The translations under genes and the position numbers were made by a program. Shown here piece by piece: positions 31,745 to 56,677 of a stretch of 64,000 nt of DNA. The notes under the pieces are model-generated. The model saw only the letters and a list, made by a program, of their open reading frames with translations. It did no database searches and was not told where the DNA came from. Source of the stretch: an uncultured Alphaproteobacteria bacterium (GTDB lineage Bacteria > Pseudomonadota > Alphaproteobacteria > RF32 > CAG-239); the NCBI GenBank assembly GCA_949297415.1, contig CASFSV010000005.1:1-64000 (forward strand). Reading direction: 5' to 3'. Positions within the stretch are counted from its first letter, which is position 1. Each line of letters opens with the position of its first letter.

Positions 31745-32683
31745 TTAGAATAAATTGTTCCAAAAAATAGAGATTGTCTTATATGCGGATAGAGAAAACT
31801 CTTTGCTTTTTTGTTGCCATTGATTCAATATTTCTGGAGTTAGTTGTTGATATAAAGTATAAGCTTCTTGAGTTGATGTGGTGTGAAAAAGTTGCTCTAA
31901 TTCAGCATCTTGCAACATTGATTTTATTTTCCATGTGTTGGATTCAATTGAAATGGTGGGAATTCCCAGCATTAAAGACATACAGCATGCATGAAATCTT
32001 CCTGAGATTAATGTTTCGTAATTTGTTAGTTGTTCTGCTTTTTCTAAATGCTTAAAGTTTTTGTTTTTTTGAAAAAAATAGCATAAATTTTTTTTGTGCT
32101 TTTTCCAATGTTTTAAGTACATGAAAAATAAATCGCTTTTGCATTGATTGGAAAGTTTGATTAATTCTGATGTGATATTTTTTTTTGTACTGTCTATGAA
32201 TGCGATTTTCTTTTGAGGATTGTGTGGATATTGATTTAAATTTGGCCAACTGTAAAAGGTTAAATCTGGAATTTTTAGGGCATTTTTGCACCCATCTTGT
32301 ATAGCTTCATTATATGAGAAGGCTTCTCTGAATGTACAAATATCGAAAATTTGTAAATAGTTTTTTGTTTGAGTGTTATTTTGCCAGACGCTATTTACGA
32401 GGAAAGTTTTTTTGTTTAAATCTTTTGCGATAGCTGCCTTTTTTAGCCAGTTACTGCCTGCATTGTCGTGAAGAGTACCCTCCCCATTTAATAAGACTAT
32501 ATCTGCTGGATTTATTTGCTCTTTAAATTCTTTATAATCAAAATCCTTATCAGTATTTCTATCGTATAGGTAAATTTCACAGTTATGTTCGTGGCATAAG
32601 GTATTTATATTTTGAATAACATGATTGCATCCCCAGTGCCCAATATCTCTAGTTGTATCGTTTAATAAAGCTACTTTTATCAT
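31745..32683 (-). CDS. Polysaccharide pyruvyl transferase family protein
   Basis: A 312-residue GT-B-like protein of the pyruvyl transferase (CsaB/WcaK) superfamily, which adds pyruvate ketals to, or otherwise modifies, cell-surface sugars. Seen: N-terminal VALLNDTTRDIGHWGCNHVI (cofactor/nucleotide loop), LLNGEGTLHDN near residues 65-74 (family G-E-G-x-x-x), FREAFSYNEA, and SGRFHACCMSLMLGIPTI at ~227-244 (S-x-R-x-H). The acceptor sugar is unknown. It starts 2 nt after the GT29 stop, so the two form one operon. More Lys/Asn-rich and AT-rich than its flanks, consistent with acquisition by transfer. Confidence 0.8.
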   Translation of the reverse strand: MIKVALLNDTTRDIGHWGCNHVIQNINTLCHEHNCEIYLYDRNTDKDFDYKEFKEQINPADIVLLNGEGTLHDNAGSNWLKKAAIAKDLNKKTFLVNSVWQNNTQTKNYLQIFDICTFREAFSYNEAIQDGCKNALKIPDLTFYSWPNLNQYPHNPQKKIAFIDSTKKNITSELIKLSNQCKSDLFFMYLKHWKKHKKNLCYFFQKNKNFKHLEKAEQLTNYETLISGRFHACCMSLMLGIPTISIESNTWKIKSMLQDAELEQLFHTTSTQEAYTLYQQLTPEILNQWQQKSKEFSLSAYKTISIFWNNLF

Positions 32684-32685
32684 TT

Positions 32686-33696
32686 TTATTCTCCAAAAAT
32701 ATTTTGCAAAATGGTATTTTCTAATTCAAAATTATGATGAGCGTTTTGGGTGAATTTTTTGATTTTTAAAAATGATCTTTTTTGAAAATAGTGTTCGTAG
32801 TAATTTGTAGCATTTTCTAGAAATGAAAATCCGAAAATGTCTTGTTTAGATATTTTGCAGATGCAGTTTAAGTGGTATAGTGCGGATAATCCTGATGATG
32901 GATAAATGATGCCATATTGTTTGAGTTGTTTTTTGTACTCGTCTCCAATATATGAGATTGGAATTTGGGCTGAAAGATTTTGGTAAATAATATCACAAAA
33001 TTTAGGATGTAGTTTTGTGTGTTTTAGATCTATATTGTAAAGAATGTAGTTTAATTTGGATATTTCGTCTAATGAGCGATTAATAATATCTCCTGCTTGA
33101 CAACAAACCCATATGTTGGTTTTGTTGCCATAATCTTGTTCGTAGTTCTTTGTAGTATAGTTGTTGAAACGGATGACGATGTCCGCTTGGTCTATTTTTT
33201 TTCCTTTTTTTTTCCCAATAAGATTTGGCGAGTTACCTATTATGGCTATTTTTTTGTTTTGTAAATAATTTTCTAAAGATAAATTGGTTCTGTTGTTTTC
33301 TAGTGTTTTCCATATTTGTGCACATTTTTGTATTTCTGTGTTTGTGCATCCTTCATCATATAGTAAATTGGATATGAGTGGGTAAGATGATATAAATTCA
33401 TAACCATAGTGAGATATGTAAGTTTTTAGAGTTTCGGAAGCTTCGCTTATTTTGTTATTTTCAATCAGTGTTGAAATGTAGATTAGAAATATTTCCTTAT
33501 TTTCTTCTTTTAATGCGGTATTACATTTTAGTATTGTTCGTAATTTTTGTTCTAGTAATAAAGGATGAAAATCTGTCTGCCACTCTTGAAATAAATTATT
33601 TAGAAAATTAGCCGTTTTAATTTTATATTTAAATTTTATTCCTAAAATTGTTAAAATTATTTTATTGCCGTTTCGATTTTTACTGTAAAGTTTCAT
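32686..33696 (-). CDS. Glycosyltransferase family 29 (sialyltransferase-like)
   Basis: A 336-residue protein with all four sialyl motifs of GT29: motif L (KKIAIIGNSPNLIGKKKG then ID..DIVIRFNNY, ~148-180), motif S (IYPSSGLSALYHLN, ~264-277), motif III (HYFQ, His302) and motif VS (His321-x4-Glu326). Family members transfer sialic acid from CMP-sialate; donor here is inferred. Residues 1-140 form an N-terminal helical domain beginning with a KIILTILGIKFKYK patch often seen in bacterial glycan enzymes. No signal anchor, so cytoplasmic. AAGGA Shine-Dalgarno ~10 nt before ATG. Only 27 nt separate the start from the terminator of the structured RNA upstream. No neuA/neuB genes in the window. AT-rich, likely transferred. 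Confidence 0.8.
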   Translation of the reverse strand: MKLYSKNRNGNKIILTILGIKFKYKIKTANFLNNLFQEWQTDFHPLLLEQKLRTILKCNTALKEENKEIFLIYISTLIENNKISEASETLKTYISHYGYEFISSYPLISNLLYDEGCTNTEIQKCAQIWKTLENNRTNLSLENYLQNKKIAIIGNSPNLIGKKKGKKIDQADIVIRFNNYTTKNYEQDYGNKTNIWVCCQAGDIINRSLDEISKLNYILYNIDLKHTKLHPKFCDIIYQNLSAQIPISYIGDEYKKQLKQYGIIYPSSGLSALYHLNCICKISKQDIFGFSFLENATNYYEHYFQKRSFLKIKKFTQNAHHNFELENTILQNIFGE

Positions 33697-33723
33697 TTTT
33701 CAACATCCTTTATGAGCAGTTAT

Positions 33724-33756
33724 AAAAAATCCCACATTTCACAAATGAAAGGTGGG
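33724..33756 (-). terminator. Terminator of the structured RNA, just before the GT29 gene
   Basis: CCCAC-C-TTTC (33756-33747) pairs with GAAA-T-GTGGG (33740-33731) and runs into a stretch of T. Its 5' arm shares three C with the closing helix of the RNA, so the two structures compete. Confidence 0.75.
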
Positions 33757-33927
33757 CGGATGTTCGAAAACCGTAAATGAATCCTTAAACGGCTCGGCTT
33801 ATTCAGCACATAGCATTATTCACCGACATCCGCCCGAAGGCAGAAATCGGCATTAAAATTAAGGTCGTATGCACACGGACGACCGGATTCATTTAAAGGG
33901 TTTTCGACGCCCTTGGATAAAATATCC
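33724..33927 (-). ncRNA. Structured RNA of ~200 nt ending in an intrinsic terminator, upstream of the GT29 operon
   Basis: Read on the minus strand. A long closing helix is formed by 33885-33894 with 33775-33784 (10 bp), 33899-33907 with 33764-33772 (9 bp) and 33908-33912 with 33754-33758 (5 bp). Inside it lie a UUCG-capped hairpin (33850-33823) and a GGUCGU/ACGACC hairpin (about 33884-33862). GGGCGGAUGU at 33835-33826 can instead pair perfectly with ACAUCCGCCC at 33763-33754. The 3' end is a terminator. It could be a cis-acting leader (attenuator) of the GT29 operon or an independent RNA such as a 6S-type RNA; I cannot match it to a known family. The end points are estimates. Confidence 0.6.
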
Positions 33928-33933
33928 TCTTAT

Positions 33934-33961
33934 AAGATAAATATTTTTCCTATTTATGCAA
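33934..33961 (-). promoter_or_regulatory. Promoter of the structured RNA
   Basis: On the minus strand TTGCAT (33961-33956) and TATCTT (33939-33934) with a 16-nt spacer; predicted start near 33927. Confidence 0.45.
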
Positions 33962-34006
33962 TAAAAAAATAATTGCAAACATAGGATTGTTTTTGAGAAA
34001 TGCATG

Positions 34007-34035
34007 TTGACAAAAATGTCAAAAAATGATATAAG
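34007..34035 (+). promoter_or_regulatory. Near-consensus sigma70 promoter
   Basis: TTGACA at 34007-34012 and TATAAG at 34030-34035 with a 17-nt spacer, 28 nt before the ATG at 34064. Confidence 0.8.
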
Positions 34036-34063
34036 TGTGCCGTAGTTTAAAATTTATGATATT

Positions 34064-56212: not shown

Positions 56213-56245
56213 ACAAAATGAGCCGTTCTGTTGCTAGGTGGCTCA
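56213..56245 (-). terminator. Terminator of ssrA (minus strand)
   Basis: On the minus strand GAGCC (56244-56240) pairs with GGCTC (56224-56220), followed by ATTTTGTAT. The loop is long, so the stem is only moderate. Confidence 0.5.
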
Positions 56246-56523
56246 AACCCCACTTTCGACTAACCATAGTTAAAAGAATTTAATTTGTTGCTTTGCCTTA
56301 TGCAGCTACAGCAACCGGTGCAAAATTATCATTTGCGTTTATTTGTTTTGAACCGATAACGGTGGTATCTCACCGAATACAGCTCTATATCTTTACTATA
56401 CACTGTCTAACCTGTTTCACCCCCTTAAATGTTTTGGTGGAGGTGCCGGGTACCGCCCCCGGGTCCAATATATCTATTTCATACGGCTTTTCGTATCATA
56501 GTTTGCAGTTGCCTGACAAACTT
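56220..56523 (-). ncRNA. ssrA: Permuted two-piece tmRNA (ssrA), tag ANDNFAPVAVAA
   Basis: Transfer-messenger RNA for trans-translation. On the minus strand the acceptor piece comes first and ends in encoded CCA (CACCTCCACCA, 56445-56435); a stem CCGGG / CCCGG with a 7-nt loop lies just before it. After a ~10-nt spacer the coding piece begins GGGGGTG (56424-56418), which pairs with CACCTCC as the acceptor stem. The reading frame at 56336-56298 encodes ANDNFAPVAVAA then TAA. This order is the hallmark of alphaproteobacterial permuted tmRNA, cut into two pieces after transcription. End points are estimates. Confidence 0.9.
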
Positions 56524-56528
56524 CTTTT

Positions 56529-56557
56529 AGTATAGGGATTCTTTTTTTTAAATTCAA
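56529..56557 (-). promoter_or_regulatory. Promoter of ssrA
   Basis: On the minus strand TTGAAT (56557-56552) and TATACT (56534-56529) with a 17-nt spacer; start expected near 56522. Confidence 0.65.
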
Positions 56558-56677
56558 GTTTTATCGTTAGCTACCTTTTTATTTTTGAAAAAAATGTTCT
56601 TTTTGTTTTTAATTAAGCTTTTATTTAGTAATGGAGTGTTATTTTACTTAAAAGTGTAATTTTTTTTAGAGGGAACA

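Follow-up and report, generated by a model that had tools for sequence, protein, structure and literature searches.

A multicopy RNA element with a C4-like layout and complementarity to downstream Shine-Dalgarno sequences in gut Alphaproteobacteria

A structured RNA ahead of a GT29 operon

The window (the whole stretch analyzed, 64,000 nt of contig CASFSV010000005.1 from an uncultured alphaproteobacterium of the CAG-239 lineage) carries on its minus strand an operon of a sialyltransferase-type GT29 glycosyltransferase gene and a second gene, the latter read as a pyruvyl-transferase in the original prediction. Upstream of the operon lies an RNA element, the parts of which are listed in Table 1. 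At the Rfam gathering level, only tmRNA was matched in the whole window, a permuted alphaproteobacterial form at 56217-56561 (RF01849, RF04321).

The minus-strand segment 33724-33927 folded at -77.4 kcal/mol, against -50.0 ± 4.7 kcal/mol for shuffled sequences (z = -5.86, 0 of 200 shuffles), and the structured RNA in it is real. Each pairing of the original prediction was found where it had been placed: the closing helix, the hairpins inside it, the alternative pairing of 10 bp, and the terminator-like hairpin. The closing helix is interrupted (33912-33909 plus 33907-33899 with 33757-33754 plus 33772-33764, continuing as 33894-33885 with 33784-33775), the alternative pairing joins 33835-33826 to 33763-33754, and the terminator-like hairpin (33756-33731) is followed by TTTTTT. 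Also as predicted, bases 33754-33756 are common to the closing helix and the terminator hairpin, and the GT29 ATG (33696-33694) stands 27 nt past the T run. Read in order, the element comprises a1b1, a hairpin, a cloverleaf with a' and b', an RCC end, and a terminator, with the Shine-Dalgarno (SD) sequence directly behind.

Table 1. Features of the window element and the operon behind it (positions are those of the window)
Feature	Position	Strand	Motif or partner	Basis
Weak promoter candidate	33934-33961	-	TTGCAT 33961-33956, 16 nt, TATCTT 33939-33934	Spotted by eye
P0, 5' hairpin	33915-33927	-	GGAUAUUUUAUCC	Fold
a1, putative decoy target	33898-33912	-	GGGCGUCGAAAACCC; partner, a' and GCCC	Covariation, alignment A1 columns 2-15 with 183-201
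b1	33885-33894	-	AAAUGAAUCC; partner, b'	Helix 3, 7/7 pairs with double changes
P3 hairpin	33863-33884	-	GGUCG..CGACC	96% paired in alignment
Putative C4-like antisense body	33751-33835	-		Lone fold; RF02221 match 33835-33746, 33.2 bits
Body acceptor stem	33835-33827 with 33762-33754	-		Fold, pair counts
Body first hairpin	33826-33823 with 33797-33794	-	UCGG with CCGA	Fold, pair counts
Body b' hairpin	33792-33789 with 33774-33771	-	CCGU with ACGG	Fold, pair counts
b' antisense segment	33775-33784	-	In loop of CCGU/ACGG hairpin	b1 complement, covarying
a' antisense segment	33758-33770	-	UUUUCGAACAUCC	Complements a1 and downstream SD
Body 3' end	33753-33751	-	RCC (ACC)	RNase-P-like end (by sequence)
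Terminator-like hairpin and U run	33724-33756	-	CCCACCUUUC..GAAAUGUGGG; overlaps acceptor 3' strand	Fold
a2 (SD)	33697-33708	-	GGAUGUUGAAAA	Complementary to a'
GT29 glycosyltransferase, first gene	32686-33696	-	PF00777	Pfam, E = 8.4e-21
Second operon gene	31745-32683	-		ORF

The promoter scan of the window did not list the promoter candidate; across 173 copies of the element, TTGACA-like hexamers peaked about 54 to 60 nt and TATAAT-like hexamers about 31 to 37 nt upstream of GGG. The P0 region (30 nt upstream of GGG) folded at -7.8 versus -2.3 kcal/mol for shuffled sequences in the same 173 copies. The hairpin at the 3' end was not called by the simple terminator scan of the window; of the 173 copies, 159 have a hairpin with a T run behind it. 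The body starts with GG at the acceptor-like stem, 3' of which RCY stands in 162 of the 173 copies.

Folded alone, the body (33835-33751) formed the acceptor stem and two hairpins (-31.5 kcal/mol). In the window precursor, the long form (state A: a1:a', b1:b', P3, and a pseudoknot) reached -67.2 kcal/mol versus -44.0 kcal/mol for the C4 fold (state B), so that state A is favored by 23 kcal/mol and the two forms are not a balanced switch.

Spread, relatives, and compensatory changes

Five copies of the element are present in the host genome (1.56 Mb). Clear extra copies came from a DNA search, which gave one to eight matches per genome in relatives. A covariance model built from 72 copies detected the element in 108 of the 125 genomes from the order and, among 385 genomes sampled from the class, in 25. 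Selected genomes held 18 to 54 copies each. By a pattern census, ruminants and other animals are the sources of gut Alphaproteobacteria MAGs that have the element, e.g., Azospirillum sp. CAG:239; a search of IMG/VR with the exact core pattern returned no phage copies of the conserved core. The fifth copy in the host genome (C48) is quite different in sequence and has retained all of the a1/a', b1/b', acceptor, and SD pairings.

The Rfam family RF02221 (sRNA-Xcc1) aligned with the window element end to end (1-87) at 33.2 bits, and with all five copies at 32 to 36.5 bits, all below the gathering cutoff of 53 bits. At an E value of ≤10, it hit five places only in the whole genome, each a copy of this layout, four known from the DNA search as well and the fifth being C48. 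The family's consensus fold (a 9-bp closing stem and two inner hairpins) is present in the window body, and, as judged from these alignments, the 3' half of the element is a distant relative of sRNA-Xcc1; the original prediction had assigned the layout to no family. A 6S RNA, the alternative offered in the original prediction, or another known housekeeping RNA would account for the long interrupted closing helix. However, RF00013 and its relatives went unmatched both at gathering and at E ≤ 10, and the element is multicopy and stands ahead of unrelated genes, so that such an identity is scarcely credible; 6S and the other Rfam families were rejected as the element's identity for want of a matching model.

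Of 299 Pseudomonadota genomes sampled, 35 had RF02221 scores above the cutoff, and 20 of the loci (L098 to L117) were inspected. The genes behind them include those for Bro-N, KilA-N, P22_AR_N, and Rha proteins and for SymE, and the antisense complementarity was locus specific (-34.6 versus -24.8 kcal/mol upstream and -21.9 versus -18.5 kcal/mol downstream, around the SD). With their a1b1 and a2b2 targets, the sRNA-Xcc1 loci look like C4-type antisense RNA, though the family lies outside the Rfam C4 clan. C4 antisense RNA is processed by RNase P and pairs around the ribosome-binding site of antirepressor (ant) mRNA (PMC5320573, PMC12197685). A recent paper puts sRNA-Xcc1 ahead of symE in cassettes of Xanthomonas and gives no C4 reading (PMC12444791), and no paper tying it to C4 or antirepressors was found in the open-access literature. 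One of the loci (L105) also has a subthreshold c4-2 RNA at 2890-2958 (RF02944, 34.8 bits), about 1.4 kb or less from its sRNA-Xcc1 RNA. The C4 models RF01695 and RF02944 matched neither the window at gathering nor positions 33600-34050 at E ≤ 10, and in relatives the element gave no C4 match at E ≤ 0.1.

The pairings were then scored in a sequence-based alignment. State A had 279 double-changed cells versus 89.5 ± 11.2 after shuffling (score, 0.314 versus 0.124), while slid versions had 35 to 83 such cells and scores of 0.04 to 0.07; the slid control carries more weight, because shuffles ignore relatedness. In state B, which was otherwise mostly invariant, 16 double changes were seen versus 5.1 ± 1.6 after shuffling, among them CCGU/ACGG to CCAU/AUGG. 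The pseudoknot, formed by the loop GCAU (33872-33869) and AUGC downstream of it (33853-33850), was paired in 92% (C-G, 31; U-A, 31) and also covaries. Compensatory changes were thus found in both pairings. The original prediction was partly supported: a regulatory leader with mutually exclusive pairings and a terminator, the gene being reached by read-through only, was judged right.

A mobile DNA repeat (MITE- or integron-attC-like) that has no role as an RNA would suit the dispersal of up to 54 copies in one genome, the occurrence of sRNA-Xcc1 in integron cassettes (PMC12444791), and the finding in another genome (G023) of the element, GT29, and a relative of the second gene in the same order at a different chromosomal place. 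Such a repeat is very improbable, however, because of the compensatory changes, and the strand-specific position before ORFs, the covarying RNA pairings, the cognate SD, and the terminator argue against it as well.

Shine-Dalgarno complementarity and the genes behind the copies

In the window, a' (33770-33758) and the SD (33708-33697) form 12 pairs with one bulged G (-13.0 kcal/mol). Like the multicopy nature of the element, its covarying helices, and the GCAU/AUGC pseudoknot, this complementarity had not been seen from the single sequence. Genome-wide SD statistics were obtained by pattern search and from the ORFs of fetched loci. The pattern AAGGATGTTN{0,9}ATG had four matches in the host genome, three of them behind element copies; a match before lon (C21) was rejected as an element locus, no element being there. 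GGATGTT stood behind 45 of 85 copies (about 1 expected). The pairing covaries from group to group: the a'-SD duplex was stronger with the copy's own SD than with SDs permuted among the copies (-12.0 versus -10.55 ± 0.13, 0 of 300 permutations), and the difference was larger among members without ACAUCC (-13.1 versus -9.3 ± 0.46, 0 of 300). For 117 of 157 close copies, the SD beat at least 95% of 200 control SDs, and for 40 there was no convincing SD match.

Three-way changes of a', acceptor, and SD were AACAUCC/GGAUGU/GGAUGUU, AACACCC/GGGUGC/GGGUGUU, AAAAUCC/GGAUUU/GGAUUUCAGAAA, and AACUUCC/GGAAG/GGAAGUU. In the common AACAUCC group, the part complementary to the SD is an invariant 7-mer with no further covariation, and a locus-specific extension of the pairing in this group was rejected (P = 0.08 to 0.6). 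Between b' and the segment behind the SD, a candidate b2, the difference was small (own, -8.9; cross, -8.2; n = 40). In the mature form, the acceptor stem engages part of AACAUCC and must therefore open before the SD can be paired. Dispersed copies were numerous in genomes G432, G438, G450, and G457 (22 to 54 each); in G438, G457, and G450, most of the sampled copies head one small secreted protein family (QCVATQDCATLGYTETSC...), and G438 and G457 have the code AACACCC/GGGUGUU instead of AACAUCC/GGAUGUU.

Among the fetched loci, 199 distinct copies were counted, and in 168 of these an ORF started ≤65 nt from the acceptor stem. The proteins encoded there fell into 42 unrelated clusters, and the leader is thus not specific to the GT29 operon. 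A hydrophobic N terminus was found in 125 of the 168 ORFs versus 102 of 405 control ORFs (20 of 42 when counted per cluster), and the proteins are predicted to be mostly exported or envelope proteins. Pfam domains behind the copies include PEGA lipoproteins, OMP beta-barrels, Chlam_PMP, pilins, OmpA, GT29, Mrr nucleases, and an EcoRI-type methylase; the copies heading restriction-modification genes (Mrr nuclease, EcoRI-type methylase) are those of L016, L039, and L031. No antirepressor was among the gene families identified behind the clade copies, which were envelope, restriction-modification, and glycosyltransferase families instead. One group of copies lies 152 to 191 nt upstream of ftsH and has no cognate SD; it occurs in several species of the genus (L119 4387-4468, G000:C35; L078, L080, L082, and L084 to L087) and is possibly a trans-acting member.

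These ftsH-linked copies, the element's own promoter-like and terminator-like signals, and the handling of sRNA-Xcc1 in the literature as a trans-acting sRNA are what one would expect of a free-standing sRNA gene with targets elsewhere, the gene behind being a bystander. We consider this unlikely, since the SD complementarity of the adjacent gene is far above that of control SDs and covaries, and in this genome the AAGGATGTT-type SD is almost confined to element-linked genes.

A putative antisense module of phage origin

The original prediction had held that homologues beside unrelated genes, with only the closing helix conserved, would speak against a cis-acting switch. Homologues do lie beside unrelated genes, but the SD pairing and both folds are kept along with the closing helix. 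In a leader acting in cis only, as an attenuator or riboswitch, state A would free ACAUCC to mask the SD, and state B would lock ACAUCC in the acceptor and leave the SD free, with a ligand, a protein, or temperature making the choice. The conservation of two mutually exclusive folds and of the SD pairing is consistent with such a leader, as is the close element-gene linkage in 168 of 199 copies. Against it stand the preference for state A in the window precursor, the variation of a1/a' and b1/b' between copies, as in antisense specificity and not in aptamers, and the fact that no conserved ligand pocket was identified. Cis-only control is possible but rather doubtful; a ligand riboswitch was rejected as the first choice on the energy gap and the unrelated genes and, like 6S RNA, is disfavored. 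That the body folds by itself while the precursor prefers a1b1:a'b' by 23 kcal/mol fits a sense/antisense module with a processed body more readily than a ligand switch in fine balance.

Building on what was demonstrated (the anatomy, the covariation of every pairing, the complementarity to the SD, and the spread in many copies), we propose that the element is probably a host-adopted phage C4-type antisense module, one that acts in cis or in trans and represses the following gene at the level of translation. A promoter of its own would drive an RNA with the P0 hairpin, the decoy a1b1, a further hairpin, and a body of the C4/sRNA-Xcc1 type that bears a' and b'. Most transcripts would end at the terminator-like hairpin, and RNase P would probably trim the body at the GG of the acceptor-like stem. 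A minority would continue into the gene behind. Its SD (a2) complements a', and a duplex of the two, within the same transcript or with RNAs from this or other copies, would block translation. With a1b1 and a2 competing for a', the gene would be held low, its release being set by the a1b1/a' balance, by processing, or by titration. Because the AACAUCC/GGAUGUU code is shared, cross-talk between copies is possible.

The element resembles sRNA-Xcc1 in its acceptor-like stem, a first hairpin with an AAUA/AAUA internal loop, the antisense in the loop of the second hairpin, a single-stranded a', and RCC past the stem, and, as in other Pseudomonadota, in having a1b1 upstream and a target at the SD downstream. 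It differs from sRNA-Xcc1 in that its conserved unit is longer, taking in P0, a1b1, and the terminator-like hairpin, and in that it heads envelope genes, not antirepressors or symE. With P1/P7 C4 RNA (RF01695; c4-2, RF02944), which silences the antirepressor of these phages, it shares a1b1, an antisense with a' and b', a target located at the next gene's ribosome-binding site, and targets and antisense in the same transcript; its GG start and the RCY past the stem mark a candidate RNase-P-type 5' end. It differs in having no sequence match to the C4 models, in that a', not b', touches the SD, with no clear b2, and in the terminator between the RNA and the gene; the genes, moreover, are the host's. 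The C4-derived Group 1 sRNAs of Acinetobacter baumannii are likewise multicopy, chromosomal, and C4-type, and their adoption by the host has been proposed; they are free sRNAs with unknown targets (PMC5320573), whereas copies of the element are tied to a gene physically and by pairing.

In its hundreds of copies in gut Alphaproteobacteria, a leader with a C4-like layout stands ahead of many unrelated bacterial genes, mostly for predicted surface and secreted proteins, and carries a sequence that, from its complementarity, could mask the SD of most genes close behind it. More tentatively, and with some doubt on our part, dozens of C4-type modules may form a chromosome-wide network derived from a phage immunity RNA, in which envelope, glycosylation, and restriction genes would be cross-silenced according to a'/SD class (AACAUCC, AACACCC) and surface genes would be switched as groups. 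If this is true, a phage antisense immunity module has become a multicopy surface regulator in gut bacteria that have received little study, and its RNA and the Shine-Dalgarno sequences are linked by a base-pairing code that can be read. The findings also suggest that sRNA-Xcc1, which is catalogued as a trans-acting, virulence-linked sRNA from integrons of Xanthomonas, may be a C4-type RNA controlling the antirepressor or SymE gene behind it.
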